From contig VCJN01001643.1 in assembly GCA_006384855.1 (NCBI GenBank), positions 1 through 64,000 on the forward strand: a stretch of 64,000 bases of DNA, read 5' to 3'. Source of the DNA: Tetraselmis striata (taxonomy: Eukaryota; Chlorophyta; Chlorodendrophyceae; Chlorodendrales; Chlorodendraceae). The number at the start of each line of letters is the position of its first letter. Within the stretch, counting starts at the first letter, position 1. Below are positions 4,782 through 63,251 of this stretch, one piece after another. Both the position numbers and the translations under genes were made by a program. The notes under the pieces were generated by a model. That model worked only from the letters and a program-made list of their open reading frames with translations. It was not told the origin of the DNA and ran no database searches.

Positions 4782-7700
4782 ATGAACAGTCCGCACGACC
4801 TGTCGGCAACGGGCAGCAAGCTGCCGCCGATGTCGCGCACCCCCGACCCGCCCACGTCCGCCTCACCAGGCGACACCGACAGCGCTGGCGCGCCGCTGCT
4901 CCCCACCGGCGTCACGCCATCCCAACAGTCCCCGGCGACTATGCACCTACCCGTCGAGCCTTCATCCCCGGCTGGCGGCGACGAGGTGATGCAGGAGCTG
5001 ACCTTCGGGCCGCGGGCTGCGCCTCCGCCGGGATCGGACATCGATGACATCGAGTCAGCCAACGGCGCACGACCGGCGTCTAGGCCGCCACGGCCCCACT
5101 CGGTTCCCGTCAAAAAGGGCAAGCTGGGTGAGTAAGCCGAGCGCGAACAGTGTGCCTGCGGTATTGCTGCGGCCGTCTGGGGTGAATGTTTCGGGCTCGA
5201 AGTCGACAACCCAGGGTCGGCGGTCGCTGGATGTTGACGTCCGACTCCCCCTCTTGCTATGTTGGCGGCAACCATCTGAATTCCGCTGCTGCTGCTACAG
5301 ATATTTCCCGCCTTTCATGCGGTAGCCGCTGCATCAGGATGATGTTCCTGGCGATCCTGCTTTCCGTGGCGTTTGCCCTCTGGGTCTTTGTCATCGCCGT
5401 CTTTGGCAAGTTCGTGTACTCCGAGTCCTTTGACGCCTCCCACCGCGAAATGCTCAACGTGGAGGTGTCCGGCTGCGACGTGGAGATTGTGCCTGGGCTT
5501 GACGCCAGGGTGGAGGTGGACTACATCGTCTGGGGCCACATGTCTACCGCTTACCAGTTCGAGCGCTGGGGAGAGGGACTGGGTCCTGGGTACCCCAATG
5601 TGCGCAGCGTGCGCGTGTTCAATCCGGATGGCTGCGGCGACACTGTCGACCGCCGCTGCTACGACATATGTCATGTGACCATCTACGCGCCGCCGGAAAT
5701 GTATGGAGTCTGGGTGTACCAGGTGCGAGGGTGAGGGGGGGGGGGGGGGGGGGGGGGGCAGCCGCATGCTTTACCCTGTGTGCCCCTCCTGCAAGCAAGG
5801 TGGATGTGTCTTGTGTCTTGTCGCCCATCGCGCTCACGCCCCGCTGCCGCCGCCACCCAGGACGCCAACGACGTGTCCGAAGCACTGGAGGTCCGCGTGA
5901 AGACGGGCGTGCAGATGCAGGAGCTGCGAGTGGTGGGCCTGGCGTACTGGAGCAACGCGGGGCCGTCCATCTCCCTCATGATTGAGCCCGGCGTGGCCAT
6001 TGACAACGTGGCCGCCTACACCGGTACACACCCGCCAGACGGCTCTGCCCCCGTCCCACCCTCGGACAGTGCGTCGCGCAGGAGCTGACGGGTGTTTGCT
6101 CCTCCCCCTTTTTGTGGTCCCAGACGGCGGCGCCATCCAGTCCTTCTCGCAGGATGTCAAGGCGGTGGACTTTTGGTCGCTGCAGAACAGCGTGCGGCTG
6201 ATCAACTGGAATCAGCCGGGCGATGACGCGACCATCAAATGGCGGCAGCCCGAGAACAAGGTCTGCGTGCACACCGCCGGCACGAGCCCCGGTGTGGTGG
6301 CGGAGGAGCCCGACCCCTGGAAGCACTGCGACATCACGTCCTTCAACGCCCGCCTCAAGAAGCTCTGGGGCGCCTTTGACGAAAACGCGGACGGCCTCAT
6401 CGACGCCGCGGAGCTCACGGGCGGATTTGCCTCCAACCTGCGCACCTGCTGTGGAGGTGCGGCAGCCACTCCCTCTCCGTACGGAAACCAGGGCCGGCGG
6501 CATATCCTCGTAACTGCGGCATCCATCACCTGGCTCAGCACGACACCGCGGGCTTTCCCCATGCTTAATATATTACATTATATTGTGTTATACAACAGAA
6601 TATAATTTGTACATCATATTGATTAATATGCAATATATTATACTGTTTTATATACCCTTCATGTTATTACCCCAAAGGGAGGAGGGGGGTGCGTTGTGTT
6701 TCATTACCGTACTGATGCTTTGGGTACATGCTTGCTGCAATTACGAGAGACGACATGCAGAAATGGCCGGATGCATACCATAGACAGGTACCTCGGGCAG
6801 GCAGCCTTCCACGTACAGCAGTCCCTCCCAGGGGAGCTGCGACTTTAGCTGCCCCGGTATTTGATGAAGAAAGCAAGAAGCTCCCGGCGTGGCTTGACAC
6901 ACCCCGAGAATCTGCGTAGCCCCGCCGCCCTCACCATTGCTGCATTTCATTCCCGGCATGCGGGACTGATTGTGCGCCCGCTCTCGCGCGGCTGTGCCTT
7001 TCCCCGCAGGCGGCTGCCCGTTCTTCTCCTTCTGCGGAGGCTACGAGGCGGAGGTGTTTCAGCTGGACACCAACAGCGGCATTGCCACCTCCAACCGGGC
7101 CGGCATCATGAGCAACGCCAACTTTGGCGCCAAGGTGCTCGAGCTGAACCACACCTTCTGGGTGCCCACCTGCGTGAAGGAGATCGCGCTGCCGCACCCG
7201 CAGCCAGCGCCGTCTGGCGCCGTGCTACGCGGCGAGTACAACAGCGACAAACCCGAGGGCACCGGCATCAGCATCTGGGCCAAGGTGCGCCCTCACCGAC
7301 CGCATGCAAAGATCATCAAAATGCCCCCCCCCCCCCCCCCCCTCTTTTTTTTTTTTGGGGGGGGGGGGGGGGGGGGCAATGAAATGCATCGAGCCCAAAA
7401 CGTGGGGAACCCCTCTGCTGAAAGCCACCTGCCGCTCCCCCCAAACATGCAGGCGGCGCCCTTTGAGGCGCACCTGAAGTCCGAAGGCGGCGAGGTGGAG
7501 GTCCTGGCAATGCAGGACGCTCCCGCCGACCTCAACCGCACGGCCGTCAACTACTGGGCCCCGGACGCGCGCATCAGCGGCATCCGCATGCTCAAGAAGG
7601 ACGCGGAGCGCATCCGCGCGGAGATCACCGACCAATTCGGCCTCCCCACGCAGAGCGACAACATCTATGTGGTCTTCGACGTGCTGTGAGTCGCGCCCTA

Positions 7701-8397
7701 CCTGAGTCGACACCACCATATACCTCAATGCCCCGCCTGCGGGTGGCGTGCACTGCATGTGCGATGGGCATCCGCTGACGCCGTTGTCGTCCGTCCACGG
7801 CAGGCCGTCGCGCAGTGTCCCGCGCTCCCGCTGGATTTACACCGCCAAAGAGTTCTACCTCAGCCTGGAGCCCGTGCACCTGCAGTTTCTGTCGGCGGGG
7901 CTGCTGCGCCCGGAGATCAAGCACTACACCGTTGGCTTCACCAACACGCATTGCGGAACCTTCCTGGACGACGACCTCGAGGACGGCAGAGCCGTGGAGG
8001 TGGTGGAGAACCGCAACCTCACGACGGCGCAGCTGCAGCAGTTGTGAGTGGCACATTGCCCCCCCCCCCCCCCCCCCCTGCCCCCTCATCAGACGTCACC
8101 CTACCAGGCTCGACACAGTAGCGCGCAGAGGCCAGCGGAGCGCCCCCCCCCCCCCCCCCCCCGCCCCATACACAGTCCCATGCAGTAAGAATCTGTAGTT
8201 GTATAGCAGGTAAAGAGTACATATAGGTCGTCCAAGAGCGGGCCGAAATAAGATACTGCCATACGGTAGTCAGACGGGATACCGGTATGCACAGGCAGCG
8301 TTATAGTCGCTGGTCGCTAGTTGCAATGTATATGCATGTTATGATTATGATTAGACATATTATAATTGTAGCAAATAAGGATATATGTCATAATGAT

Positions 8398-8434
<37 letters not shown>

Positions 8435-11400
8435 CTGACTAACATAATCCTTGGTTGCTATAATCATAATTTGTACCTGACATCTGCCGGAGAGCATATA
8501 TTTATTAGATTGTAAATTCGGCATGTGACAACGATTGAGGACCGGTTTCAAACGGATGTCGAAGCATGTCCAGAACCTTCAGGTGGGGGATGTGTTAGTG
8601 ACGGTAAGTTTGCTGACATGTCACTTATAGAATCAATCTGGCGGGGGGATATGCACACCCAGGTGCCCTCTGCCGCGCAGATGGTACCCCACCATCCCTT
8701 CAAACCAACCACTCTATCACACGCAATCGGCAAAAGAGGGCAAAGCCGCTACTATGCGCGAAACCGCGTTTACCCCACACCGCGAATTGCCCATGTATCA
8801 GATGTACGGGTGCCGGCGCCTCGATAAGAACACTGCGAATAAGAACCCGCCCGGCCTGCCAGAGGTCCGATGCAGGCGACCCTGTGCCGAAACTGCAGCG
8901 ACTGTTCTTTTAGGATGCATGCATGCAAGCCCTATTAGTGGCTTGCGATGTGGGCTCTGGTAGGTGCATCGGCGCCGGTATAGCAATGACCGTTTGGCTG
9001 GCCCATGTCAGCTGCAGATACCTCCACCGCTGCGCTCTGCCTGCTCTGAACGCGGTATGCCAATGCGCCCCCCCCCCTTCCTCCTCTTGCCTGCAGGCTG
9101 AACGGCTTTGACGGGTTCCACAAGGTGCTGACCCTGGAGATGGTGAAGGACGTGTACGAGCAGCTGCAGACCGCGCTGCTGCCGCGCTTTCAGCGCGAGC
9201 TGCACGGCATGCTCGTCATGGTCAACGGCACGCACCAGCCGGAGCCGCTGCCCAGCCAGCTTGTCGCGTTCCACAAGTCGCTGGCAACGGGGCCCACCCA
9301 GATCACCGCGTCGCCGTACACCAACCCCTTTGCTTCGTACGTCCGCGCGGGCGCCGCCCTGAGCATTGCGCTGGCGGCCGTCATGAGCACCCTGGCGATG
9401 GGCGGCATCCTGGGCTACTCGCGCTTTGTGCTCAAGCACCGCGCCAAGGCCGAGCAGCTGCGCAAGCGCCTGATGGTGCTCAACATGGAGCAGCTGGCGG
9501 CGGACGACCACTACGACGCCGGGCAGCTGAAGGCCGCAGAGAAGCAGGTGCGCCGCCGCCGGCCACTCCTAGGACTCTCGTTGCGTCGCCACAAGCACGG
9601 CAGTGGCGCCGGGACGCGTGCTCTCCCCAGCGCGGTATACACTTTGTCAGGGAAAGGATGTCCACGTGGGCCCTGCAGGACGTAACTGAATCGTCGAGAT
9701 GGCAGCGGTAGCATCCGCTGCGGATTGAGCTGTCTGCACTGGCGGCTGGTGCGCAACGTGACATGAATCCGGGCTGCTCAAGAATGACTGGATGAGGTTC
9801 TTTGGGTTAGGTCATACCGCAACCCCACGCTCTGGGTCTGTGGTATAACATTGTTTTTGACCCTCCCTCTCCCCCCCCCCCCCCCCCCCCGGCACAAAAC
9901 GAAAAACTACATTCATGTTGACATGTATCCAAATACAACGCGAAAATCACACGGATCTTCTTCTTTGCCGATGCAAAACAGTTCATCATTTTCGACCCCC
10001 GGGACTCACTGTAATGCCACGGGCGGCAAGGTGAACGTACTGCCAAAGGGCGCATTGCGCTGGCGGTGGGGTGCAGGCGCCACCTACCTCGGCGCCATGC
10101 AGACGCCAGGCCGTTTAGGGAAGGGCCGTGTCACGTATTGTGCTGCGGCGGGGGGATGGAATGGCATGGTGAAGATACATCCCGGAAAGCGGCATTCTTT
10201 TTGTGTCCCTAATGTCGAGCAATCGGGAGCAACCATCCTCCTCTTTCATAATATTGGCCCAAAGACAGTGACCTATAATATTAATGAACAACATCGCTAC
10301 TTTAGTAACAATATCTCAAAGTGATATTTTGATTATTGTAGGGGTTTTTGTCTCCATAGACTTTATTTGCATGGACACGTGAAATAGCTGTTTCGATTTG
10401 TTTTTACTTTTTTGCGCCTGCCGCGGCGCCGGTCGCGGTGTTGTGTGATTGCGCAGGCAAAGGCCGCCAGCAGCGAGAAGGAGAGCATGAACACGGAGGG
10501 CAACTCGTTCAACCCGTTTGAGATGCCGCTGGTGCTGCTGCGCCAGCTGGTGGTCAATTCGGTGCGCAAGAGCGTCGTCAACTCGCTGGACCGCTTCCTG
10601 CGCTGGCACTGCCACGTGTACCGCCCCGAGAAGGCGGCGCCGGCAGCCGCGGGCGCGCACCATCCCGGCGGCGGCGTCAAGGCGCCGTCGTTCATGAGGG
10701 ACGACGCCGGCGTGGGGCGCGTCACGTGGCACCTCAGCAAGGGCTGCCACGGCGGGGCCGTCTTCCACTCCGGCCGCGAGCCCGCCATGTCGCTCGCAAA
10801 GCTGTTCAAGGAGTACACGTTCTTCTGCTTTGAGGAGGACCTCAAGGTTTGTGCCCGCACAGGAGCGACCCAACGCTGTGAACAGGCTGTGAACACGGTT
10901 GAAGGTTTATATTCATGGGCGGGGGGGGCTTTCTGGGGATGGAAGGGTTTTCAAGTCCTTAAGACCTGAAATTAACCGGCCGAAACCCTAAGCATTTCAT
11001 CTGGGGTTTCATTGGTTAAAGTGTGGTTTTTGAAAAGCTGTTTGAAGTTTTTAAGATGTCTAAAGTCTGAACATTCCACGTGAAGGAGCTGTCGGGCGTG
11101 AAGGATTCGTGAATGCCATGTGAATGATTGGTTGTCGTGGACGGCCTCACACGTGTGCCCGTTGCAAGCAAGGACTGAGTGTCGGTGGTGTCGCTTGCCG
11201 CGCAGGTGCTGTCCAACCTGGACATGCTGCAGCGCGAGCTGGTGCGGGAGCACAGCGCGATGATCCGTCTGCTCAAGGTCCGCCGGCTGTCGGGGTGCCG
11301 CTGGCGCGACCAGCGCGCCCTGGAGGCCGCGCGCGCAGGCGGTGCGTGGCCGCAGTGGGCCGCGCCTGTGGGGCTGCCGACGGAGTGCCTCGCGGGGGCC

Positions 11401-14400
11401 GCTGGCGGGCCGTCCAATGACACCGACGGCGCCGCGGTGTCGGCCTTCCTGCGCGCCTGCGTGACGGCCACGGGCGACCCGGCCGACAAGCTGGACGTGT
11501 GGCGGACGTGCCGCGACAAGGAGCCGGTCGGGGGGCTCAGCGTGTACATGGCGATCGGCAGCTGGTGCGCCGCCTACGGCGTCGCGGAGCCCAACATGGC
11601 CGACCTCGACATCGCTGCCATCGCCAGCGCCGCCGGCGAGGGCATCACCTACACGGCCGCCAACGTGAAGGAGGTCCGCGGCCTGGAGCTCAAGGACATG
11701 ACGGACCCGCGCTGCCGGCCGCGCTACGCGCGGCAATGGTACATGATGGAGGCGCTGACGGTGCTGGTGCACGTGGCGGCGATGCTGCTGCTGCCCTGCA
11801 TCTGCCTGCCGCTCGCCGTCAACGCGCAGTACGCGTACGCCGCCTCCACCGCGCCGCCCGGCACCACGCCGCTCATGTGGTACCACGTGATGCAGCTGTG
11901 GCCCGACGTGCGCGGGAAGGAGGTGGCGCTGGTGGTGCAGATCCTGGTGTGGCTCAACCTGGTCTACATGGCCGCCGCGCTGCTGCGCATCTTCCTCCAC
12001 TACCTCCAGATCAACGACCGCTCCTGGTTTGTCCGCGGCGTTCGCAAGGTTCAGCCCCCCCCCCCCCCCCCCCAGCCCCTTCATGCCCTCATGTTATGCA
12101 CTGTGGCTTTACCATACATTGACTACCGCGACATTGCTTTGGCTGTGCAAAATGCCATTGTTTTTCACAGCCAAGAGGAAAACAGCCTCCATCTGAACAC
12201 GCTCGAGCACATCAGAGCAAACCTGAACACATGATAGCACATCTGAGCACATCCGAACACATCTGAACAATACGAACACATCCAAACATATCATTAGAAC
12301 CCAACACCACACAAATACGAACACATAACACGTCTGAACGTATAATTTGAACCCATCTGAACACATTATTAGAACACATCCGAACACATGAATAAGAACA
12401 TATAATAAGCAAACGTTATAGCAACACATCTGAACACATCCAAACATGTCCGAACACATAATTTGAACCAATCTGAAGACGTAATAGGAACACTTTCGAA
12501 TTTATTAGAGCACATAATAAGAACCCGGAATAAGAACACATCCGAACACGTCTGAATACATAATTTGAACCCAATTGAACAGATAATAAGAACACATCCA
12601 AAAGCATCCGAATTCATCTGAACACGTCTGAACACATAGTTTGAACTCATCTGAACAAAAACGAAAACAGCACGAAATAGACACAGAATTCATCAGTTTT
12701 CCAACTCCACCTCCGTGGCGCAAAACAATGCACTGCTTTATTTCACCCGCGAACCCATTTAAACGTCACGGGCGGGGACCTGCTGACAGTCGCCCTTTCA
12801 TGTACAATGTCCGCGTGCATGATTGAGCGCCATCCCACCAAATTGACAGCGCGCCCCGCCCGCGCGCCATGGGTGCCCAGGTGTTTGGCGCCATCCTGGT
12901 GGTGTACCTCTGGCTCATCATCACGTACCTCGCGCTGCTGTGCGTCTGGTTTAGCCTGGCCGCCATCATCGACCCCATGCGCTTCCTGCCGTACGGCACG
13001 GCGGTCGTCACCGTGCTGGCGGTGATGCTCGTCACCTGGAAGGCGATGAAGAAGGTGATGTGGCGGGGTCGCCCGCCTCTTGTCCGATCGTGTGGATCCG
13101 CACCGCATTATTTCCCCCTCGGCAATATATGCGAATTGGGCAGCAAGGCCGGAGAATTATCCAGTCCCGGCGTAGCCTCGACGAGCTGCGCCGACACCGT
13201 CACGAGTATAATTCTAACCACGGCATCTACTGTACGGATGCCGACACACCTGGTAAATATATGCACGAGTCTTCCCAGCCGCGTACCCGCGTAATATAAG
13301 CTTTTAATTGGCCCGGTATATGCAACCTACAATTTGGGCCTTCGCTTTAGTTCCTCTATTTTTTTCGTCTACATTTAACGTCCGACAGGTAAGGCAGGTT
13401 GCTAGTCGCAGTATCAGGTTTTTTTGCTTGTTTTTTAACATTGCAGAGTCGACACCTGTAGCGAGCTCGCCAGCATTCTTATGACCGATGTTACCGCAGT
13501 CGACAAGTCGTTTATACCACGGTAGTGCCGTATCGTATCTCTGTAGCTGAATACCCCGCTCCTCTGATCCGACGACGGCGGTGAGCTGACGATTGTGGCA
13601 ACTGTGCACTGCTTGGATAGGCTGCTGAGATGCTGGGCTCCGCACTGAGGGACGCGTACCAGAAGCAGATCAGCGCCACCCTCACCAGAAGCGGCTCGGC
13701 CGACTACCTGGCGGTGTCCGCCCAGACCGACGGGCTGCGGAAGCGCAAAAATGCGAAGGGCGAGGATGTCGCCTCGGTCAACGTGAGGCCACCGCTGCCG
13801 CCTCTGCCCCGTTCAGCTTCCGAGGCTGTGACGCGATCGCCATGCGGCCAAAACACCGGAGTCGCCCACTGTTACATTCATGATATCTATTATGTACTAT
13901 ATATAAATGTATACAATCACATATTCGACTTGTTCAAGATATTAATTAATGCTCGTCATGAAATACCTTCATTTACTAACTAAATGTTCACTATCGCATT
14001 ATTTGCTGGATAGCGCTACTACATCAATGATATCATGATTTGCAGATGCTTATTATTATTGAATGGATGATATTGCACACATGTATTCATATTGCTGATG
14101 CATGTATACACTATATGACTACTGGCGAGTATATACCTTCGCATAAAAAAGAGCGACTCGCTCATCTGATGTATTCTCGTACTTGCCCCAAGACGGACGG
14201 CCTGACTGCGGTCTTGGCCGGATTCCCCCATGGCCAGCACCATAATTGAGCGATGGGCCACGAGCTGCTGCTAGAGTGCTAGACATCTTTCGATCGATTA
14301 ACACCGGGTCACGACATGTCAGACGCTGACCTCGTCAAGTGCCCTGTCGCCGAGTCGGTATTTCATTTCGACAATCCTCGCCGTCGACATGCAGCGCCGC

Positions 14401-15498: not shown

Positions 15499-15559
<61 letters not shown>

Positions 15560-28099: not shown

Positions 28100-28900
28100 G
28101 CGTGCGGTCAACACAACCCGGCTGGCGGAGGCCAAGCAGAACACTGGCTGCCATGGCGCGTGCCATGTGCATGTGGTCTTGGGCTATGTCAGCATGGTCA
28201 ACCTCTTCCCCCTCGCGCCGTTCCACCTGTTTTTTTTTGGCTTGGGAAGGGACTTCTGGAGGAAATTTGTCACCGTGCAGGGCCACATTGGATTCCGAGC
28301 TATGAAGCAGGAAGACCGGCGCCAGGCTTTAGTCCCGATACCCAGCAACTTTGAACGCGGGTTGCGCCCTTCGTTTGCAGTGTCCAAGAATCGAAAGGTA
28401 AACCCCTCCCCCCCCCCCCCCCCCCCGGGCGTGGGCGTGGGCGTGGGCGTGACGGCATTCCCCTCCATGACTGCAGGGTCAGGCAAGGTGACGGTAGGTG
28501 CAGCCCGGCTGGGTCATGGAGGACTGCTTGCACCACATGGAAACGTTTTCCATTCTTAACGCCGGTCCGCTGCTCGAGGAGGCCCGGGTGAAGGCGATCA
28601 TGCCCGAGAAGGAGCTCGCGTCCCCAGCGGTGGTGCGTTCGGTGTCGCGACTGGCGGTGCTTGGGCACATGTACAAGCGCCTGCAAGGAGCTGCGTGGTT
28701 CGTCACGCGGTGGGGGTTGCAGAATGTGGTGACGGAGGAGGACGGCCCCGAGCGCAAGGCGCAGGTGGACGCGCTCACTAGGGAGGGGAGGACTCGATAC
28801 CCAGCGCGGCGCCAAGGCGCGGCGGCCGGGGCAGCGCGGCGCCAAGGCGCGGCGGCCGGGGCAGCGCGGCGCCAAGACAGCGCATACAGCGGAATCGGCG
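28100..28900 (+). mobile_element. Transposase-like fragment (exon series)
   Basis: Frames at ~28160-28398 (VHVVLGYVSMVNLFPL, FFFGLGRDFWRKFVTVQGH) and from ~28513 (MEDCLHHMETFSILNAGPLL, AVLGHMYKRLQGAAWF) are protein-like. The first closes at a donor (AAG|GTAAAC) followed by a C17 tract, so it appears to be spliced. The H-x-L-x-x-L-x-x-x-x-FW theme is reminiscent of TNP2/Transposase_21-type proteins, but the match is weak and no DDE triad could be assigned. It is probably part of the element that carries the BED-like and Tudor-like frames. Confidence 0.35.
28796..28876 (+). repeat. Three ~30-bp GC-rich tandem repeats
   Basis: The unit contains CAGCGCGGCGCCAAGGCGCG and encodes RRQGAAAGA. It occurs twice in full, and a third copy diverges after the first half. 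Confidence 0.85.
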
Positions 28901-43735: not shown

Positions 43736-44172
43736 CCTTGCCATCATATGAAGGGCATCGAGATGCAGCCAAGCTTCGCGACGTCCTTCCAGGCGGCGGT
43801 GCGCAGCGGCGACTGGCCGGCGGCAGTGGCGCTGCTGCCGCAGGTGATGGCGGGGCCGTCGGCGCGCGCGGAGGGGGAGTTCCTCATCCTGCGGCAGAAG
43901 TACCACGAGCTGCTGGGCGCGGGCGACCAGACAGGGGCGCTGCGCTGCCTGCGCGCCGAGCTGGCGCCGCTCAACGTGAACCAGGCGGAGCTGCACAAGC
44001 TGGCGGGTGGGAACCACCCCCCCCCCCCCCCCCTGCTTTACCGCCTCCACGGCCACACCCGGTCGCAACATTCCTCATTCCAGTTATCCTGTTCGCGCTC
44101 AGCGGGATGGCAGTCGGCAGCAGCAGCCCAGCGGCTGGCAGCCTCCCCCCCTTACACCCACCCACCCACCCA

Positions 44173-44207: not shown

Positions 44208-47200
44208 CTGAGGCTGAACCCCCTCCCCCCCTTGCCGCCACGCATGTGGCTGCAGTCATGCTGCTGTGCGGGCAGCCGGAGCGCCCCGCCGGTATGGTGC
44301 CTGAGGAGCACATCGCCGCGCAGCGCTCTCAGGTGCTAGAGGAGCTACAGGGGCTGCTGCTGCCCTCGCTCATCATCCCTGACGGCAGGTACGGCATGCA
44401 GCGCCAGAGCACCCCCCCCCCCCCCCCCCCCGCCTCCTCCCCTCTCTCCTCTGCAGGTGCTTGGTGCCCCGACTGACCCCCAAGCCGCCTTACCTGGACC
44501 CCTTAGGCTGGAGCACCTGGTCGAGCAGGCGCTGCTTATGCAGGTGGCCAACTGCCCCTACCACAACGGCACGCCTGCGCACCTGTCGCTGTTTGCCGAC
44601 TACAGCGCGGGGCCGGAGCAGCTGCCCACGCAGACGGTGCAGGTTGCCCCCCCCCCCCCCCTCCCCCCTGCCTGGTAGCCCGGCTCTAATCACCAGGGAG
44701 ATGTCCCGGCACAGCCCGGATCCCCTGTGGTGCCCGCCCTGTATCACCATTCTCCCTCAACGTGGAGGGCGGGTGCCTTGGCGGGCAGCACCCGCGGAGG
44801 GAGGCCCGCTACCCCCCGAGCCAACCCTGTCCCCGCTCTGGTCGCTTGGCAGGTGCTCGACGCGCACACAGACGAGGTGTGGCACCTGCAGTTCAGCCAC
44901 GACGGCAAGATGCTCGCGTCTGCCAGCAAGGTGCGCGCCACCAATGCAGCCCCCCCTCCCCCCCCCTCTCCCTCCCCCCCCGAACCTTCCCTTTTCCTTC
45001 TCCTGCGTGCAATGCATCAATCTCCCCCCCCCCCCCCCCCCCCTTTCCCCTCCAATACACCCCGTGCAGCCCCCCCCCCCCCACCCTCCCACCCCCTGTT
45101 ATGCTATGCCATGCTACACTGTGGCTGATCCCCCCCCCCCCCCCCCTCCCCGCTTTGTGCTGCTCCCCGCAGGACACCACCTCCATAATCTGGGCCATCA
45201 CTAGTGGCGGCGAGTGCAGCTGCCTGCACACCCTGAAAGGCAGGCCCCGGCTCCCGCACGCCCTTCCCCTCCATGGGCGCCCGCTTGCGGCCAGTGGGCC
45301 AGCGTGCCCAGCGCCACAGCATCCCGTGGGCGGCTCGCGGGGGCTCTCGTAGCGCTGGGGTGTAGGCCGGCGCAAGCAGGGGATCTGCCCCGCATCAGCC
45401 AGCACTTAGTTCGCTCATCATTTTCCGCTGCAAGGCACGCCGGTGGGCAGCTGTGGTATCCCCTGGGACGCAGGCCGTCGCGTGCGGAGGGAGGGAGAAA
45501 GGAGTCTGGAAACAGTTGGGGGCAAGGGGCGGGTTACCCTACTTAGGGCTCTGAAGCCCTGATGGGTTTACGATCGCCCTGACCCCCGGCTGGCGTGTGG
45601 GTGCGCAGGGGTGGACACGCAGCTGACGTATGTGTCTTGGTCGCACGACGACTCGATGCTGCTGACGTGCGGGAACAGCGGCGACTGCGGGCTGTGGAGC
45701 GTGGGCAGCGGGCAGCTGCTCAAGAGGCTCAAGTACCCCCCCACGCCCTTTGGGCCTCCGTCCCTTCGCACGCTCGCGTAGTCATAAACCCTAAGTATAA
45801 ACCCTAAATCCTCCTCCCTTGTGCGGCTACGGCTCCTTCTCCCGATGGGCGAAGCATACAGGGTTGGAATTTGGGGCTTACAACCCTGACACACAGGGTT
45901 AGGGCTATAGGGTTTAGTACCAAAACCCTTTTGTTTAGCACTTTATTAGGATTTGCACGGTGCGCTGATTTACTTACCGGTCTGGGTGATTGTGGTGTTG
46001 CAGCGGTTTTACACGCCTGTTTTTTTTACCATGCGCTTTCGACATGGCGGCCAAGACATTTGAGGGGGAAACAATCAGGGTTGGGCGCTTGTCATTCCAT
46101 CTCTCAGGGCTTTTCCGGCAAACCCTAAAACCCGACCCCTCAGGCAAGATGCGCCCGCGGAGAGTACTTCCATCCAGCTTTCTAATATAAAGGTCTAACT
46201 GTCACGTGGCTTTGCCACATGGGGCGCGCTGTCGTCATCCTTAGCTGCCCCTGCGAGACTGGCTGGGCAGACGGGGTGCACGCGGTCACCTACCTACTCG
46301 TACTGAAACAGCTTCACAAGCTTTTAAGTTTAGGGTTTGGGTGACCATCCCTCTCTAAGCCCTAACTTGAATCATTCCACCCTGATTTCAAGGTGGACAG
46401 AGCTCCAACTCACCTCACGCGGTTCCCTCGCGGTCTGGCCGTGAATTAGCCGCCAAGGTCGGTCTTAGCAGGCATGCTCGGTGGGCGGCGGCCCTCATCC
46501 TCGCCGGCAGAAAGGGGCGATAGAGGGCGGGGGGGGGGAATTGCGGAATGCTTCGGCAATGTGCTTGATGACTATAACAGAGCGTCGCCTACCCCGGGCT
46601 TTCCGTAACTGGATTGCTGCCTAAACGGCCGTCGTAGAGGTGCTGCAAGGGTTTCACTGATGTTGCCAGTCCTGTCCCGAGTGCGAAGGGGGATAGAGGT
46701 TGGGGGGAGGGGGGCTCGCTGGTGAGAGCGGCGCCGGCTCCCTGCGCACCGGGGTGGCCCCGCTCCGGTGTGCCGCTTTCGTCGGGCCGCCGGGCAGAGC
46801 CCGGTGCGCAGCGTGGCGATCCCTTTCCCAGTTCGAGGTTCCGGCTGCGCAGCGCCCGCCCCCCCTAATGACCCGCCTGCCTTTGCCGCCCGCCCCGCCC
46901 CCCGCAAGGAAGCACACCAGCACCGTGGTCGCCGCCGCGTGGTTCCCGGCCGGCGACCGCTTTGTGACGGGCGGCTACGACAAGCGCACCGTCATCTGGA
47001 ACACGGACGGCGAGGTCCTGCGCGTCATCCAAGGTGCGGATGTCCAAGGTGCCCCGCGCTCCCACGGCACTGACCTCCGTGTGGCTGTCAGCCTGTCGGC
47101 CGGCGGGTGGGCCGGAATGTCTCTATTTGAAATGAACTTAGGAATTCCTTGCAACTTTGTTCCTGCTTAGTCTTTGATGCTCAACAGGCCAGCTGTCTTA

Positions 47201-50200
47201 CGGCCCAGCGCATAGTGTCCGCTAGTGTAGTGTGTAGCGTCTGTGTCTATGATATATCTATCGTATGGGGCATCACTACGCACGCTCGAATAGGTTGCCT
47301 GCCACCCCAATTTGAGGCTTACCTTACGGGTTCCCATACGGGTGCCGACTGCTCGCCGATAACACTCCTTCTCACAAGCCTCGAGTGGGGCTTCCATGCA
47401 ACCGATAACACCATTCGCTGTAGTATTGTCTATGTTGTATCTGGCAGGCGGGGCGGTGTCCTTATCGCCGCGTGGGCGCTTGTAGGCGAGTCGGTGAGCA
47501 ATGCGCAATGGACATCCGCCTACCGCACTGTTACCCACCACACCAGACCGCATCGTACTTGCCTTTGCCCCCCCCCCCCCCCCCCCCCCCCCACACCACC
47601 ACCACCAGTTGGTTTGGCAGCGGCGCATGGATACGGTGGGTTTGTGGCGCACCTCGTGAATTTCGACTGTCGTATACCTTCGCCGGCGTTGTCAGGAAGG
47701 GGGGGGGGGGGACGATTCTGTGCAGACTAGGCGGTGTTTGTTTACGGCATTACACCATAAGCATATTCTGCGGGGGTGCATAACTATCACCCACATTAAC
47801 CCTCCCCCCCCTGGGTTGCCGCTATGCCGCCCCCCCGCAGACATCCGGATAAACGACCTGGTGGTCACCGGCGACGGGGAGCACCTCGTCTGCGTGGTCT
47901 CCGAGAAGCACCTGCGGATACACCGCCTGGCGGACGACGTGTCGATGCAGATCAACCGCGACGAGCCGATGACGTCGCTGGCGCTGTGCCCCGACGGCAG
48001 CCAGCTGCTGGTCAACCTCGCCTCGCACACCATCAACCTCTGGTCCATGGCCAACCTCAAGCGGCAGCTCGGCAAGGCCGGCGGCGGCGGCGCTGCCGGC
48101 GGCAGCCGCATCCCCGGGCCCCCGCCCCCCGGGCCCCACTCCCAGGGCGACGTGCTGGTGGAGTACAAGCGCGGCCGGCCCGAGAAGCAGGGCCGCTTTG
48201 TCATCCGCTCCGCCTTTGGCGGCAGCCACTCCAACTTTGTCGTCAGCGGCAGCGAGGACTCGCAGGTGAGCGCGCACTCCGGCCGGCGCGCGCACCACAG
48301 GGGAGCCGCTGCTCGACCGGCGCGGAGAGTGACTGCGCGCCCCCTCTCACAAACCGACAGTCTAGCTAGGATCAGGGGAGGGCACATCCTGGTGCTCTCC
48401 CCCACAGGCAGGTGCTTCAACCTGATGATGAAGCGGCCGTTGATTGGGCCCGCGAGATTATCGTCAACAGAATTAAGTTTTTTTGCCGGGATAACCGTGT
48501 TTTATGCTAATTAGTCTCCAGATAATGCAGTTTTGAATAATGTTGTTCCTAAGGGGGGGGGACGGGAGGGTAGAAATGTTGCGAGTACATAGGGGAAACT
48601 GAAATGATACATATTTTACCGCATGGCCGCTATATTATGGTGAATGTGCATTGTTTAGTGGAATGGAGTATGGGCCGTCGGTACTCTTCCCACCGATCAT
48701 ACGTCGATAATTGACTTGAACTACGGGCGCCGACGAACCTATACTAAGAGCCCTTGTTATGGGAAGCCTGAGATTGGGCTCATTGCATGCAACCCATAGG
48801 AACATTCGCTGTACTTCCGCCATATATAGTGCCGACTGCATTTGACCTCTGGCGGGTGGGCCGGGATCTCGTGCACAGTCTCGTTATGACTAGCGCGTAG
48901 GTGGCAAACAATTACACGGCGGTGCCCGGCCGTGTTTTGTCACCCTTTTAGCGTTTTTTCTATTCCATTCTGGTATTATTCTGGTCTTAAATCTGCTGAG
49001 TGCTGGAGTTTCATTGTAGTAAACCTGTTTAGACGGGATAGAGTGGATTACATAATCCTTCATATCTGCAATATTGCTGCCATATTATGTCCTAATGATA
49101 TTATACTACCTTATACTATCTGTACTATCTGTGCTTACCAGAGAGTACACCTCCTTACACACGTTGTCGCATTCTGAGTGTAGCGTGTGCAAGGTCATCT
49201 TATCGTTGTGCTCCGGTCCGCATTCTAATTGTCGCTATCTAATCCCAAACATTGCACGTACACTTCTCCTTAACAAATGGGCAATACAAACTCAAACAAT
49301 GTACTTAGTGCGATTCGAAAGCGCTTCGCAGTACGACTAAGATGTATCTCAGCTTTCTTTCAAGAAACCCAATCTATAAACACCCTTCATATCTATTCTA
49401 TTCTATTCATATCTGTTCTATTCTATTCTATTCATATCTATTCTATTCTATTCTATTCTATTCATATCTATTCTATTATATTCATGTCTGTTCTATTCTA
49501 TTCATATCTGTTCTATTCATATCTGTTCTGTTCTATTCTATTCTATTCTATTCTAGTCTAGTCTACTCTACTCTACTCTACTCTACTCTATTCGAGTCGA
49601 GTCGAGTCGATTCGATTCGATTCTATTCTATTCCATTCCATTCCATTCGCTTCTCTTCTCTTCTCTTCCATTCCGTTCCGTTCCATTCCATTCCATTCCA
49701 TTCCATTCCATTCCATTCCATTCCATTCCATTCCATTCCATTCTGTTCTGTTCTGTTCTGTTCTGTTCTGTTCTGTTCTGTTCTGTTCTGTTCTGTTTCT
49801 GATTTCCAAGCTTCCATCCTAATATACTGGTTAGTCCGCGCCAGCACCCGCCAGTGCATGACGTGGTAGTAACTTATTAAATGGGCTGTGATACCTCCCG
49901 CCGATGGGCAGCCACGCCCTGTCCATGTGGACCGGCGCCCCAACCCTCCGCGTCCCGGCTGCCCCAATCTGCTCTCCGCGGCTTTGCCTCCCTGGCGGCG
50001 AGGCCGTCCCGGCCGCGCCCTGACGCTCTGACGCTGCGGCGGCGCAGGTGTACATTTGGCACAAGGACACGGGCGACCTGCTGGAGGTGATGCCGGGGCA
50101 CTCCGGCACCGTCAACGCCGTCTCCTGGAACCCGGTGTTTCCGCACCTCCTGGCCTCGGGCAGCGACGACCGGTCGATCCGCGTCTGGATGTCGCCGGTG

Positions 50201-50224: not shown

Positions 50225-50466
50225 CCGTGGCCCGGGCGCGCAGCCTGGGCCTCGCGATAGGAGCCCCGCCCTCAAGGCTGAGCCGGCGAGTTGCCGATGC
50301 GGCATGCGCAAGCAAGGCCGTCCAGGCCGACCGGGGGAGGAGCGGCCGAGGGGAGGGGGCTTCGTTGTAAGACTCACATAACTAATGCATGCGCATCCGG
50401 CAACGCCGCTGTATCTGCTCTTCTGCTTGCCTCCGAATCAGCGGTGCGGCAATGAGCCTCCGCCGT

Positions 50467-56304: not shown

Positions 56305-56976
56305 ATGAGCTAGCAGCAGAAGGCGATATCGGAAATGACCAAAATAAAAGGCAATCAGAAAGGTCCTCTACATCGACTGCGGGGTGGAAGCAGGAACATG
56401 AGAAGACGCAGAGTGGGCACGAGCACACGCATCAGACTTGGCCATCTGCACACCGGCAGAGAGAATGCCGCCCAGGGTACCATGCACGCAAGCCGAGACC
56501 CGCTGCAACAGCCCCCGCCGTGTGCGCGACAGGTGACGGCGGAACTCAGCAGGTTGGCCGGCGACAAAGTTTCGAAGTGCCTGAACGGATTGACCACGAA
56601 GAAAGCAAGAGGTCGGGGCGGAAGGACTGCCAGGGAAGTTGCGCACAGCCAACAGCACCGCGAAGATGTAGACCACAGTCAAAGCGGACTTCCCGAGTCG
56701 GCCGCGGTCCTCAACCACAAAAGGGTAGTACCGGTGAACACCCTGCACTGGGGCGGAAGACGCCCGGTCCGCTGCCAACTTAGCATGCTCCGCCTCGGTC
56801 GCCGCGATTCCCGGGATGCACCAGCGGGGGTCGTTGCTCCAAGTGGGGGTCGTGGAGGACACGCACGCGAAGTCGATCATGTAATCGCACGCTGCCCCTC
56901 CCCACCCCGCCAGCGTCAGGTCCGACGGCCGCGAGCGGTCCGCTGGGCGCAGCCCACTCGTCTCAATAATATACAA
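56305..56976 (-). mobile_element. Non-LTR retrotransposon C-terminal fragment and 3' UTR
   Basis: The minus-strand frame ends at 56368 and contains SRPSDLTLAGWGGAACDYMI, DFACVSSTTPTW and YYPFVVEDRGRLGKSALTVV. The RP-x-D ... W ... D-x-x-V-x-S pattern followed by a PF-V-V/A-E-x-x-G-x-x-G motif is found at the C-termini of many non-LTR retrotransposon polyproteins, where it resembles a PD-(D/E)XK nuclease fold. The following ~65 bp are the 3' UTR, as shown by the independent truncated copy at 42386-42457. The reverse transcriptase part is absent, so this copy is 5'-truncated. Confidence 0.65.
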
Positions 56977-57015
56977 CTGGACACTACTCTTACGGGAACA
57001 AGTAATGTATGTCCG

Positions 57016-57173
57016 TACGGGTGCCGCCGACGCACTTTGAAGAACGGGATTTTTTAATGCAGAAATAGGGGTACCGGCATTGCGTTATTAAATTCGCATT
57101 ATATCCGTGATTATTTCATCTAAATTTGAGCCAAAAATGGCAATGCGTTCTTCACAGTGCGTCGGCACCCGTA
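57016..57173. repeat. Imperfect ~30-bp inverted repeat around 100 bp
   Basis: TACGGGTGCCGCCGACGCAC continuing to GAAGAACG at 57016-57046 pairs with CGTTCTTCACAGTGCGTCGG continuing to CACCCGTA at 57146-57173, with one three-base gap and one mismatch. It suits a small foldback element or MITE end pair. It adjoins the 5' end of the non-LTR fragment. Confidence 0.7.
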
Positions 57174-58255
57174 TAGGGGACTGGGCCCTTCCCGGCGCGC
57201 CACTGTCGGTGACATGTTACACGTCATACCTGCGTGCGACCACATTACGCCCTCATGCCTCTGCCAATGCCCGGCGCTGTCCGCAGCAATCCCCGATGTC
57301 TTCAAGACTAGATTGCATCTCCAAGCCTAGCGCCTGCTTGCAACCGACTGCCAAACCAATAGCTGTATAGAGACGTGTACGCCCCGGTACACTGTAACAA
57401 TTTCCTTGGCTGCAAACCTTTTCCGTCTTTACGCTGAAGCCCTCTGCCTAAAGCTTACATGCGCCTTGGGGGGCTGCTCCGGTGGGCGTGGCGTTCGCCG
57501 GGGGCTAGTGTGCTGGTAGTTCCGGGGGCCCCTGCTGGGGCTGGCTGGCTGGTCATCTGTCACTAATGCCGGTTGATGCTCCCCCCCAGCCCACTCCCGC
57601 TGCTGTGTGTTCGCCGCGCCGGCGGCCACGAGCTTGGGGCCGGTTGATTCAACAGTCTTGCGCCACTGCTCTGCGTTGCCGCTCTCACGTGTGCCCCTGA
57701 TCTGGCTGTGGTGCGTGACGGGGCGAAGGGTGAGGGTGTAGAAGGTTGTCTGCTCCGCGTGGAGGGCGCGGGAGGGAGGATTAGGAGTTTGTGTGGGCTG
57801 CCGTGGTCCGCGATCTCGCCCGCCTCCACGGCAGCGAGGCTGAACGGGTGGACCTCGAGGGTCGACGGGTACACGTGTACATGTGTTGATCTCCTCCTTA
57901 TAGTGATGCTTTTAGCGCTGCCTTTGTTACTGGCGCTTTTTGTACTTCACAGCACAGGTACCTCCATGGTCACGATAGGACGTAGCGACTACATGCAGCG
58001 AATTAAATCAGACTGTCGATGGCGATCAATCGTTGATAAGCACCACGGGGTGCAATTCTTCGTTTAAAAAAGGTTTTTGGCGCTTGCCGCAGCTCGCGGG
58101 GCGCTCGCCGGGCCGCGTTAGCCACGGGACTCTCAGCCCCGCAAGGCGGGTATGCTTGGCGAGAGCGCTCGGGGAGTCGAGTCTGGCGCGGGGGTGGTCG
58201 GGCGGTAGCAGAGCGGGGCGGGGGGTGGGTCGTGAGGGGGTTGGAGGGCGCGATG
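57174..58255. other. Downstream region of the AKINbetagamma gene, no gene supported
   Basis: The frames here are short and GC-driven. The 3' UTR of the minus-strand AKINbetagamma gene must lie near its high-numbered end, but no TGTAA signal was seen there on the minus strand. Confidence 0.45.
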
Positions 58256-61200
58256 CTACGGGATGAACAGGTACGCCGCGATGTCGCTCAGGCTGATCAC
58301 CCCCTCCACGCGCCGGGTCTCGGGCTCCACCATCACCAGGCGCCGCACGCCCGGGATCGACAGGCGCTCCACCACCGTCCGCAGCGAGTCGCGCTTGGTG
58401 CACATGAACACGCGCTGCCGTAGGTGCGGGTGCTGCTGCCCCTGCGACGGCGCCGGGCTCGGCGGCGGCTGGGACAGGGGCGTGCCTGCGCGTGGGCGCA
58501 CCCATGGGGGGTCAGGGGGGGGGGGGGGGGGATTAAACCCTAAAACTCTAAGGAAGCAGCTGCGCCGGGACTAGCCAACTTAGGGTTTTGAAACCCTAAA
58601 TCGCCCGCCGCCGGCCAGGAGCAGCACGCAAACCGCAAATGTTGCCTTTCTTCTCTGTTTCGTTTGAGAAATCACCTGGGCGGTGGCATCTAGCTGCACG
58701 CCTGCGGTACCCGCACCCGCACGCATGTGCACCAGGGGTTTCGACGTTTGATGCTTCAATTCGCAACCCGCACCCGCCCAAGTTGACAGCGAGCCGGAAT
58801 TACGGGTGCCGGCAGGGTAATGATGTGAACGCGGCGAGCAGCAACCTGCCCTACCCGCCAGGGTGTAGCAACAATAGAGCAAGGATGCTGGGAAGGGGGG
58901 GGGGGGGGGGGGGGATCTGGGCGCCGCACCCGCCGCCGCCATCATATCGGCCGTCAGCCCGCCGGGAGGGAGGCCCCCGGGCACAGAGCCTGCCCGGGCC
59001 GCCGCCGCTGCTGCCGCGGCCGCCGCCGCCTGCGCCTGCTGGTTGGCGAGCGCCTGCATGTGGCACAGCGCCGTCAGACCACGCCGGCCAATGCCTCCCC
59101 CCCCCCCCTCCCACTACCTTCCTCTGCCACTGTCACCCGCCATCAAGGGCGGCCCCCACCCCAAGCACCAAATACCCCAATACACTGCGCCATTTAATTG
59201 GGTTTGCGGGTCCCCAAAATAACGTTTTTTTTGCAGCATCGAGTCGGAATATCGGTGTGGCGTTCGTGTTGTATTCCGATAAATTCCAGGATAAATACAG
59301 TTTTTGGGCCCAGGGTGGGTGGGTGGGGGGGGGGGGGGGGGGTAAACGATAATACCGCGCACCCGAAGCGTGGTTTAAGGTATTTCTTTGCTCCTCAAGC
59401 ACAACAGCAACAGAGCAGAGATATGCGCCCTCAGGCCGACCCCACCAACCCCCCACAGGGGAGGGCCATATTAAAAAACAGTATAACCAGGTATAAACAG
59501 ATACAAACAGTTCTCGATTCAAAACCGCACGAAATCGGGTACGGTATTGGGTCGTAGCCGCGCTGTCAATATCTACCCGGGTACTAGAACCCGTCGTTCG
59601 TAAATTCTCCACACAATAAGTTCGGGCGTTTCGCCCGTCGATATACCTGATAGGATACCGACATGTGAATACCGCATCACAAATGCATACCGACAATATG
59701 GAGCACGCGATCCTCGCTGAACGAGGCGTCTGTAGATATGAGGGAGCTGGCAACCTTCGGCACGCCTCGAGCCGCCGCGAAACGGGCTGGAGCGCTGTGA
59801 GGAACGCCGAGCCTATGCAGCGCTGCGCGTTTGAAAGGGAATAGCGCAAGTCTGCCAGCGGGTGCCGGAGGTGGCGGCACACTGGCGGTGCAAGGGGGTG
59901 GTCGGAGAGTGAAGACAGGAGGAACCGGGGGGGGGGGGGGGGGGGGGGGTCAAGGACAGAAGCGGGTGCGCGGGCAGAGGTGCCATGGGAGAGGTGCCTC
60001 TGGGAGAGCCAGTGCCATCCTGGCTCTGAGGGAGGCGGCCCGGCGGGAAGGGGGGGGGGCATGGGCGCGTGCGCACCAGGGCCTGCCCTACGGTGACGTC
60101 CTCCCACTGCAGCCGGCTGTACGCATTGCCCTTTGCCTGTCACACGAGGAGGGCAGGACCGGGGGGGGGGGGGGGTCAAGTGAGCTACGGGAGGCGCCAC
60201 ACGCGAACGAGCGATAAGGCCTTGGGGTGGTAGAGACGAGGAGGTTTGGGCAGGTCGGGGGAAGGGAGGGGGGGGAGGACCAGCATGGTGATGTCGCTGC
60301 GCGAGTAGATGTCCATGAGCATGCCCTGCTCGTTGACGACCGGCAGGCTGCTGACGCCCTTCTCCAGCAGCATCGACAGCGCGGTCGTGAGCGGCGTGGC
60401 GGCGGTGACGGTGTTGAGCGCGCCCACGTGGCGCAGGCCGCCGCGGCCGCTGTGCGCGTCCTTGTCGCCGCCGGGCGGCGCCTCCTCGGGCGCCCCCACC
60501 CACGTGCCCAGTGGCAGCGAGCCCAGCGGGTGGCTCAGCAGCGGCAGCGAGGACAGGCTGGCGCGGAAGTGGCGCAGCAGGCAGGCGAGCACGCCGCTGA
60601 TGGTGGCGATGTGCAGTAGGTTGGGGATGGCGCCGTCCTCCGCGGCGGGGTCGCAGCTCAGGATGGGCGCCATTGAGTGGCCGCCCTCGTACAGGGTCGC
60701 CACCACCGTGCGCAGTGAGTCGTCCGGCCGGCAGTACACCAGCTCCAGCTGCTCGCCCGCGCCCAGCGCCATCTGCACGCCACGCCACAGCCTTATCGCC
60801 CCCCCACCCGCTCAGCCAGCCTTCACCATCGGGCTCTCCCCGGCACCCTCTGGCGCCACACTGGGCTACCCCCTTGGTCGGCCAGTGAAGATCTCTGGCC
60901 GGACTTTCCCATGGTACCAAACCCCCCCGCTGCCGTCTCCCCTCTCATCTCCCGGTGGCACTGCCCCCCCCCCCCCCCCCTAGCCCTCTTTGAGCAGCCT
61001 CAAACCTTAGGCCCTGAACATATTCAGGGTCCACCCTCCCCGCTATCCTGCGAGTGGATACAGGCATGCAGGGAGGGGCGGCCCCCACCTCCTCGCGCAG
61101 GTGCTGGATGGTGTGCCGGTCCATCTCCTGCTCGCTGAGGGGGTTGCTCCCGCCGGCGACGCTGTTGCGCAGGTGGCGCAGGATGTGGATGAAGTCGCTG

Positions 61201-63251
61201 GCGCTGATCATGCCCACGATGCTGGCCGCCTCAGTGTCCCACAGCGGCGCCGAGGTAATCCCCTGCTCGTGCAGCGCGTGGAAGGCTTGCCGCACCGGGA
61301 GCTCCGTGTCCAGCAGCACCACTTTCCCGCTCTCGGGGATCAGCTCGTACGCGGTGTGGTTGGACAGAAACTCTAGCACCTTCTTCTTGGTCATCTCCTG
61401 CCATTGCGACGGCATGGGAGGGGGAGGAGCGGAGGCTCAGCATATGTGTGCGAGAAGGTATCCCGGGGGGGGGGGGGGGGGGGGGGGGGGCCAGGGGGGG
61501 GGGGGGGGAGGGGGGAGTTGAGCAGGGAGAGTGTTGGGGAGGCAGCAATGCTCACCGCAGCAGCCTGCAGTGGCTCGTCCGGCTGCAGCGCGATGGGCGC
61601 CACGACACTGTGCTCCGTCATGTCCACGTCCTCTGAGACCGGCGCCACGCTCGCCTGCTCGCTCTGCGCCGCCTGCGGAATCAGCAGCCGCGCGTGGGCA
61701 GGTCAGTCCTTGCACCAGCGTGGCACAACGGTAGGTCCGAGTACGGCTGGTGGTGGGTGGGTGGGTGAGTGGCGGGTGGTGGTGGGTGGGTAGAGGGGGG
61801 GGGGGGGGGGGGATCCGTACCTCTGCCTGCATGGATTGCTGCCCAAACGGCTCGGTGTGCTCCGTGGCGGTCTGCCCCTGTGGGGTCATCTGCTGCCCGC
61901 TGTCGTGCAGCGTTTGCGCCCAAGTGAAGGGATGGGGGGAGTGCGGGGGCAGCGAATACCGTCAGTGGTGCACCCTCCCTTGACGACTGACATTTCACCC
62001 ATATGCCTCATTCACCAAGTGCGCAGCGGCCAACTCCAACCCCATCCCTGTCAGCATCCCCAACCCGGTTCCCATCCCCAGGTGTACCTCCATCCCCATC
62101 ATAATCCCCGTCCCCTTCCATGCCGTCATCCCCATCCATGCAATAATCTCAACCCCCATCCCCATCCCCACCTACACGCCCATTCTTGTCCCTGTCTGAA
62201 TCCCCATCCTGACCCCCTGTTCTCATTCCCGTCTTCATCTCCATCCCGGACTGCGACATCACCGCATCCTGATCCCAGGTCTCCAGCCCATCCACATCTC
62301 CAACCCCATCACCGCCCCCATCATCACCCCCTCCCCCGCCCCAAATCCCCAACCCCGTCCCCCGTCATGCCTCCGCCCTCACCCTCACCCCCTCCTCCCC
62401 CTCGCCCACAGCGTCACTCACCTGTGGTGCGGCTCCGCCCGCCGCACAAACAGCCAGTTGTTCACATTGCCCAGCGGGTCGGGCATGTTGGGCTGCGTCT
62501 CGTCATGCCGCCACTCGCCGTCCACAATGAATTTGTACTGGTGGTAGCTGGCGCGGGCAGGCAGCCAGGGCGGGGCATTGGATGGGAGGAGATCCGGGGC
62601 GAGGCGGGCTGCGCATCAGTAGGGCGCTCCCCCTTGCTAGACGACACTCAATGCTGTCATACTGTCTGTGCGGGGCACTCGACCCCCCAGGGAGGGGGGG
62701 GGGGGCAGACATCGACGGGGGCAGCCAGGCAGAGGAGGGGGACCAAAGAGATGGAGCCAGGCCCGGAAGGGGGGGGGTCACCCGGGCGGCAGGTGCACCA
62801 TGACGGCAAACACGCCGGGCGCGTCTGGCACCGGCGGCATAACGACCGTCTCCACCCATCGTGTGAAGGAGCCGCACAGGTGGACCTGCAGCGCGCGGGG
62901 CGCGAATCAAGCACGTGGGGGGGGGGGGGGGGGGTCCGCGCAGAGACGTTGGGATGATGCGCTGGGGTTGGCTGAGCTGGAAGGGGCGAGGATGGGCACG
63001 CTGCTGGGAGTGTGCGAGAGAGTGAGAGGGAGTTTGAGATGTGTGTGTGGGTGTTGGGGGGGGGGTATGCAGGAAGAGACACTGTTGGCGATGGGACAGG
63101 AGGCGCAGTGGGCCTGTGCTGGCATCAGCACGGCAAGAAATTAGAGAGGCAGGAAGTAGCGGCGTTGGGGGGGCTGGGGGGGGGGGGGGGGGGGGTCCAC
63201 CTGCGCCCCGCCAAAGCGCCAAACAAATCGTGTCGGAACGAAGAACGACAT
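58256..63251 (-). CDS. SNF4: SnRK1 beta-gamma subunit (AKINbetagamma/SNF4-type), 10 exons, 563 aa
   Basis: Exons in transcript order are 63251-63201, 62885-62782, 62547-62422, 61899-61821, 61672-61556, 61397-61089, 60772-60281, 60136-60077, 59053-58930 and 58485-58256. They sum to 564 codons including stop, with every phase matching. Residues ~7-90 form a CBM48/glycogen-binding domain ([40 protein letters not shown]). Four CBS motifs follow at ~162-235, ~275-330, ~378-440 and ~510-563 (for example [57 protein letters not shown]). This CBM48-plus-CBS fusion is specific to plant and green-algal SnRK1, the kinase that senses low energy. A poly-Ala linker is encoded by exon 9 between CBS3 and CBS4. 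The start is the only ATG in phase before the conserved PTRFVW motif. Confidence 0.95.
58895..58914 (-). repeat. Poly-C tract 16 nt after a 5' splice site
   Basis: Twenty G on the plus strand, read as poly-C in the sense of the AKINbetagamma gene, directly after the exon 9 donor. Comparable tracts in this gene follow the donors of exon 1 (63176-63195) and exon 4 (61795-61812), with shorter ones after exons 2, 7 and 8. Confidence 0.9.
61465..61508 (-). repeat. Double intronic poly-C tract
   Basis: Runs of about 26 and 14 G on the plus strand, split by CCA, read as poly-C in sense between exons 5 and 6 of the AKINbetagamma gene. Confidence 0.9.
62030..62400 (-). repeat. Degenerate CCCCATCCCCA-type low-complexity intron
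   Basis: On the plus strand, about 370 bp of variants of TCCCCATCCC and CATCCCCA fill the intron between exons 3 and 4 of the AKINbetagamma gene. In sense this is a G-rich (GGGGAT)n-like tract, the opposite base from the poly-C tracts near donors. Confidence 0.8.

Follow-up and report, generated by a model that had tools for sequence, protein, structure and literature searches.

Sense-strand polycytidine tracts next to predicted 5′ splice sites in Tetraselmis striata as probable overgrown splicing enhancers

Why do introns of a green alga so often begin with a long run of cytosines? The question is raised by a 64,000-nucleotide stretch of the Tetraselmis striata genome (assembly GCA_006384855.1, contig VCJN01001643.1, positions 1 to 64,000 of the forward strand; hereafter the window). 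An earlier reading of its letters alone, here called the original prediction, had noticed sense-strand poly-C tracts starting shortly after many 5′ splice sites (donors) and had suggested either a splice-enhancing C tract or a template-strand G-quadruplex (G4) or R-loop acting on transcription. Our analysis of predicted introns in the window and beyond it revealed a strand bias confined to the neighbourhood of donors and, less strongly, of acceptors. We believe that the tracts represent C-rich enhancers of splicing on the intron side of the donor that have overgrown, the seeds of which would have been lengthened by slippage, and we put the probability of this reading at roughly 0.6.

The genome searched comprises 224 Mb in 2,903 contigs, and our sample of 273 kb consisted of the window plus 209 kb drawn from ten arbitrarily picked contigs. 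Three of these (C211, C1010 and C1207, 47.5 kb of the sample) were excluded from gene finding because their sampled stretches contain no C or G runs of at least 9 nucleotides (nt) and they are possible contaminants, perhaps bacterial; the G+C content of C1010 is 66-67%. Dropping run-free contigs could raise the density of runs, not their C:G ratio or position. Introns were predicted with a codon-based gene finder that started from exons of the window and then trained itself; its signal input was limited to donor positions -3 to +6 and acceptor positions -4 to +1, and C or G runs of 8 nt or more were scored as neutral. A first run was discarded as far too permissive (1,243 introns) and replaced by one with higher penalties. 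This gave 121 introns, of which we kept the 106 that were at most 1,500 nt long and not cut by an edge (median about 350 nt). They come from the window and seven contigs, and all of their donors are predictions on computed gene models. As the donor matrix slightly prefers C over G at +4 and +6, five of the 27 donor-proximal tracts described below, starting 2-5 nt from the donor, were possibly slightly favoured; the remaining 22 begin further away.

Within these 106 introns, 30 C runs of at least 8 nt start no more than 40 nt past a donor, compared to four G runs. The starts divide into 24 C and one G at 0-20 nt and six C and three G at 20-40 nt. Near acceptors there are 23 C and four G runs within 100 nt, and the last 45 nt of the intron hold 12 C versus 2 G tracts (71 introns). 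By comparison, 11 C and 13 G runs lie at least 100 nt from both intron ends. Random re-placement of the runs within their own introns brought a mean of 8.4 C runs to within 40 nt of the donor, with a maximum of 21 in 10,000 trials, and random flipping of the strand of the 34 near-donor runs gave a mean of 17 C and a maximum of 28, as against the 30 observed. Altogether, 27 of the 106 introns bear a donor-proximal C homopolymer, 8-33 nt in length and starting 2 to 28 nt past the donor. These introns occur in the window (9/33) and on contigs C803 (10/29), C37 (3/14), C402 (3/10) and C1411 (2/9), with none on C1802 (0/8), C1605 (0/2) or C615 (0/1). The 73 introns outside the window have 21 C and 3 G near-donor runs (p 0.0003); C803 supplies 13 of these C runs and weighs heavily in this small sample. 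The positional and strand bias that the original prediction had expected of a plot of run positions relative to donors is therefore present in predicted introns, also beyond the window. Exonic runs (13 C, 1 G in the sample) partly resemble missed donors and were left out of these counts. Homopolymer lengths in the assembly may be wrong by a few bases, and we see no way in which assembly error could produce a strand bias tied to donors.

Decoy sites were used for comparison. Eight consecutive C (C8) are found within 46 nt downstream of 29 of the 121 predicted donors (24%), 123 of 7,700 decoy GTs drawn from sense introns (1.6%) and 43 of 6,172 intergenic GTs (0.7%). When decoys in sense introns were restricted to those with a donor score of at least 3, C8 and G8 followed 18 and 16 of 987, versus 24 and 4 of 98 predicted donors. 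We also counted donor words genome-wide, on the plus strand and once per word, scoring runs of ten (C10 or G10) within a given distance. Downstream of AGGTGCG, C10 occurs 777 times and G10 312 times at 0-30 nt, and 468 and 426 times at 60-90 nt (p 0.17), a shift between the two intervals with a Fisher p of 4e-18; on the exon side, where C10 only was counted, there are 68 within 30 nt. Reverse-strand tallies for C and G were 7,302 and 2,144 at 0-30 nt and 3,868 and 3,110 at 60-90 nt, which are not independent events because every start within a run was counted. The backwards control for this word was unequal at 0-30 nt (C 330, G 167) and equal at 60-90 nt (150 each). A decoy word, GATGGCG, gave 161 C10 and 716 G10, far from 1:1. 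We do not rely on it, because a repeat family inflates its G count (7 of 13 listed plus-strand places); several of its listed C matches have a donor-like word in between. Since word counts take in sites that are not donors, they probably represent a lower estimate.

These data bear on the claim of the original prediction that the bias follows transcription, which holds near splice sites and fails in intron interiors, where the C and G fractions are balanced (0.267 and 0.265 over 33 kb). A transcription-linked explanation would hold that C-rich sense sequence avoids R-loops or RNA G-quadruplexes, or that a G-rich template acts on RNA polymerase, such that genic runs survive as sense C. It can draw on the overall excess of C among sense intron runs (62 versus 25), on the scarcity of G10 past AGGTGCG at 0-30 nt relative to 60-90 nt (312, 426), and on the mild C excess retained in the reverse-strand tally at 60-90 nt. 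Intragenic tracts of Caenorhabditis elegans lean the same way, 84 versus 47, with G favoured on the non-coding strand, according to the portion of PMC2211496 available to us. However, the template-strand G4 or R-loop idea predicts a bias along the transcribed region, and there is no clear bias away from splice sites, whether in interior runs, interior base composition or the AGGTGCG counts at 60-90 nt. Loss of G runs alone also cannot yield the C excess, because C8 is about 15 times commoner past donors than past decoy GTs in sense introns. The bias is local to donors and therefore speaks against a transcription-wide effect, an explanation that we regard as improbable.

The enrichment is not restricted to long homopolymers. 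The C fraction is 0.52 at +6 to +16 and declines to 0.36 at +46 to +60 (92 introns), and it is 0.45 at positions 6-16 in the 67 introns without C8 in their first 60 nt. Among 53 introns of at least 200 nt with no C8 starting in the first 40 nt, short runs of 3-7 nt at +6 to +46 number 75 for C versus 32 for G, and 313 and 303 in the middle of the same introns. Such a gradation is relevant to a neutral explanation, in which a donor-tied process, such as splicing-coupled breaks or exposure through U1 or R-loops, makes or lengthens C runs without any benefit. Runs are certainly abundant, with 82 C or G tracts of at least 18 nt in the 273 kb sample and an estimated 7x10^4 genome-wide (scaled from an 18-mer count), and their occurrence does not correlate with donor strength or 3′ pyrimidine content, both of which suit a neutral process. 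Nevertheless, an excess graded down to C3 is not needed by a slippage hotspot, and we know of no such donor-tied mechanism, so we consider a neutral origin unlikely. In the green algae covered by one survey, mononucleotide repeats are reported to be rare, at 0.94% of tandem repeats in the part of PMC3887541 that we could consult.

The window contains 28 C, 34 G, 5 T and no A runs of at least 8 nt. An EF-hand gene on its plus strand has ten exons that join into a single open frame with no internal stop, and its EF-hand Pfam match falls under the curated cut-off. A GID7/WDR26 homologue matches Pfam LisH_WDR26 (E 4.6e-12), with WD40 matches slightly below cut-off, and a minus-strand AKINbetagamma homologue matches Pfam AMPK1_CBM and CBS. 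The DnaJ-like gene is putative, being a gene-finder model with an identity taken from the original prediction. The runs in question are as follows:

7324..7342, plus strand: C19, 39 nt past donor GT 7285 in EF-hand intron 5; the gene finder missed this intron, so the run is not among the 30 counted
8059..8078, plus strand: C20, 15 nt past donor 8044 in EF-hand intron 7
12055..12073, plus strand: C19, 6 nt past the EF-hand exon 10 donor 12049; the gene finder put this donor at 12027
28408..28426, plus strand: C19, 10 nt past GT 28398, which closes a transposon-like frame
44017..44033, plus strand: C17, 10 nt past donor 44007 of the GID7/WDR26 homologue
44412..44431, plus strand: C20, 23 nt past donor 44389 of the GID7/WDR26 homologue
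44647..44661, plus strand: C15, about 10 nt past donor 44637, or 4 nt past the alternative 44643, of the GID7/WDR26 homologue
44958..44966, plus strand: C9, 27 nt past donor 44931 of the GID7/WDR26 homologue
58895..58914, minus strand: sense C20, 15 nt past donor 58929 of the putative DnaJ-like gene
61795..61812, minus strand: sense C18, 8 nt past donor 61820 of the AKINbetagamma homologue
62769..62777, minus strand: sense C9, about 4 nt past a donor near 62781 (placed by eye) of the AKINbetagamma homologue
63176..63195, minus strand: sense C20, about 5 nt past a donor near 63200 (placed by eye) of AKINbetagamma homologue exon 1
5735..5758, plus strand: exception, sense G24, 12 nt past EF-hand donor 5723
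60964..60980, minus strand: exception, sense G17, 108 nt past donor 61088
7357-7376, 10921-10928, 46529-46538, 47699-47711 and 48553-48561: further sense-G runs

The tracts that the original prediction had placed after EF-hand exons 5, 7 and 10, exons 2-5 of the GID7 homologue, exon 2 of the DnaJ-like gene and the transposon frame ending at 28398 were all recovered, as were the two poly-G exceptions it named. For AKINbetagamma, three of the tracts it described could be assigned to donors, two of these by eye; the runs it claimed for exons 7-9 are present, but their donors could not be fixed. The further sense-G runs had escaped it; those beginning at 7357, 10921, 47699 and 48553 lie 72, 74, 665 and 287 nt past their donors, and the one at 46529 has no fixed donor. 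Four more C runs follow at 44974-45146 in the intron after donor 44931. By eye, a long array of degenerate 'gaacacat' units is also visible at 12160-12600, downstream of the EF-hand gene.

In EF-hand intron 5, positions 7324-7376 comprise the C19, a T-rich spacer and a G20, which together could form a long hairpin. This would fit an explanation by RNA structure, in which the C run would either prevent pairing of the donor or itself pair with G residues that form a run elsewhere in the intron. Across the 27 tract-bearing introns, however, the predicted openness of the donor was 0.304 versus 0.310 on deletion of the run (p 0.99), and replacing the run with A, G or random bases changed openness with p 0.17 or more. 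G runs of at least 6 nt also occur just as often in introns that have a C run as in those that lack one (7/27 and 20/79, p 1.0), and we consider a structural role highly improbable.

A dispersed repeat at 8115-8260 contains the second C run of EF-hand intron 7. Of the 45 further matches that 7010-8260 has in the genome, at least 43 overlap this repeat; some runs therefore travel with repeats. Another family, GATGGCGGGGATCCCGCGCG(G)n, is present on several contigs among the matches listed (e.g., C4:1088-1116 and C21:48416-48460). Such repeats lend something to the idea that the introns were inserted by a mobile element with terminal poly-C, as do the 11 of 79 tract-free introns whose first 200 nt match elsewhere, in five cases with a match that starts no later than base 4; these may be transposon genes. 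By contrast, none of the 27 tract-bearing introns matched elsewhere in its first 200 nt (within the 273 kb sample, which rare families could escape), and matches between introns (10/106) were internal. We therefore attach hardly any probability to mobile introns as the source of the tracts.

What we did find at predicted donors is a C-rich motif on the sense strand within tens of nucleotides, and the splice-enhancing tract of the original prediction gains indirect support from this donor-local, graded enrichment and from its likeness to published enhancers. In the enhancer explanation, selection would favour C-rich sequence up to approximately 45 nt into the intron. A factor that reads poly-C there, possibly a KH protein akin to PCBP or hnRNP K, would help U1 to recognise the 5′ splice site. 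The milder C preference at the 3′ end would be the usual pyrimidine tract. If the genome readily lengthens C/G mononucleotides, C-rich seeds held in place by splicing could slip into runs of about 20, and the strand bias would be set by the function of the seed and not by transcription. Tract length is most simply explained by such slippage. The varied distance of tracts from the donor (2 to 28 nt) would be easier to reconcile with a protein that reads C-rich RNA than with base pairing, which needs a fixed register. One candidate reader is a three-KH gene on contig C1064 (stretch L034:398-2196). Two of its KH domains, searched against solved structures, matched FUBP2, Nova-1, FUBP1 and IGF2BP, with PCBP2 further down, and the protein has a Tyr/Gly/Gln-rich tail and, by eye, a C-terminal WW-like domain. 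Contigs C4 and C187 also encode predicted KH proteins.

Work on vertebrate introns provides precedents, in the parts of the sources that we could consult. When C runs were inserted into SMN2 intron 7 at +10, inclusion of exon 7 increased from 50% to 67%, an effect that grew with the number of C (PMC8789036). The authors consider PCBP1/2 likely to be responsible and cite work in which PCBP1/2 are reported to activate cassette exons that depend on them and have C-rich motifs beside their splice sites (PMC8789036). C-rich motifs also serve as enhancers within human LCAT intron 4 and within GNPTG intron 2, and in chicken hnRNP K works through such a motif close to a 5′ splice site (PMC2481429).

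Several observations weigh against the enhancer explanation. Donors with a tract are not weaker than those without (median score 5.1 vs 5.3, p 0.33), tract-bearing introns are not shorter (p 0.73), and 3′ pyrimidine content shows no difference with or without a tract (p 0.49). We therefore saw no compensation for weak signals. In LCAT-type cases, enhancers make up for a poor donor or a poor 3′ pyrimidine tract, a trait that is not generally required and that was not found here. Near-donor G runs are not depleted in the sample (4 vs 2.2 expected), and the sense G24 lies only 12 nt from its EF-hand donor. A second donor word, AGGTGAG, is weakly biased (C 327 vs G 250, p 0.0015), while its backwards control leans towards G (C 38, G 112). 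Runs of about 20 nt seem to exceed what one KH site needs. The KH gene on C1064, with its WW-like end, resembles the C1 subunit of the clock protein CHLAMY1, which is not known to be a poly-C binder. The published record is also mixed in the passages available: in SMN2 intron 7, C runs placed at +15 had a suppressive effect on splicing because they formed GCACC, which inserting a base relieved (PMC8789036), alphaCP2 at a C-rich patch inhibited splicing of alpha-globin intron 1, and the C-rich motifs of LCAT intron 4 could be fully replaced by G-rich ones (both PMC2481429). On the tests above, structure masking, C-G partner runs and weak-donor compensation were rejected, as were introners within the 273 kb sample.

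A bolder proposal, which we find possible and hold tentatively, is that donor-proximal polycytidine has become a standard fourth intron signal, in homopolymer form at some 2x10^4 introns to an order of magnitude, and that its quickly changing run length tunes splicing efficiency gene by gene. That figure is an extrapolation rather than a count, scaled from 27 introns in about 226 kb to 224 Mb. Approximately one quarter of the sampled introns carry such a tract as a mutable homopolymer; if the enhancer explanation is true, the genome would be a natural experiment on enhancer length versus splicing and would show that an unstable class of repeats has been captured by the splicing code. There is a practical side as well, as such a tract caused a simple gene finder to overlook EF-hand intron 5 and, it seems, several more introns, and annotation pipelines may likewise miss introns that bear them.

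Donor-proximal poly-C tracts in an alga were not found in the top-ranked open-access literature, a weak negative, and the terms C-rich and polypyrimidine do not occur in a paper on Volvox splicing (PMC4378016). Among known systems, introner elements share sequence over their length, including the ends, a trait that no tract-bearing intron (0/27) displayed in its first 200 nt within the 273 kb sample. The 3′ polypyrimidine tract, the site of U2AF, is likewise a sense-strand pyrimidine-rich splicing signal, and the algal C excess extends to the last 45 nt of the intron, but the main algal peak is at the opposite intron end and consists of C instead of U. The poly-G/poly-C tracts of Caenorhabditis, which are maintained by DOG-1, are similar in that G/C homopolymers of at least 18 nt are abundant, mostly non-exonic and, within genes, favoured as sense C. 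In both systems tracts of this length are far above chance, yet the count is 396 for the roughly 100 Mb of C. elegans, compared to the estimated 7x10^4 in 224 Mb of the alga with their excess at donors. The C. elegans tracts show no positional bias within introns, as stated in the accessible portion of PMC2211496, and this feature is not shared by the alga. The PCBP1/2 and hnRNP K enhancers, such as those of SMN2 intron 7 and chicken beta-tropomyosin, offer the likeness of sense C runs tens of nucleotides past the donor, some of them at the acceptor. As far as the available parts of the sources go, what is known of donor-proximal C tracts comes from introns of mammals and chicken and from reporter assays, whereas the algal tracts take the form of 8-33 nt homopolymers, occur in 27 of 106 introns and have a presumed function and a candidate reader protein. 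C-rich enhancers on the donor side are thus already known, and we classify the homopolymer form found in this alga as a variant of them.

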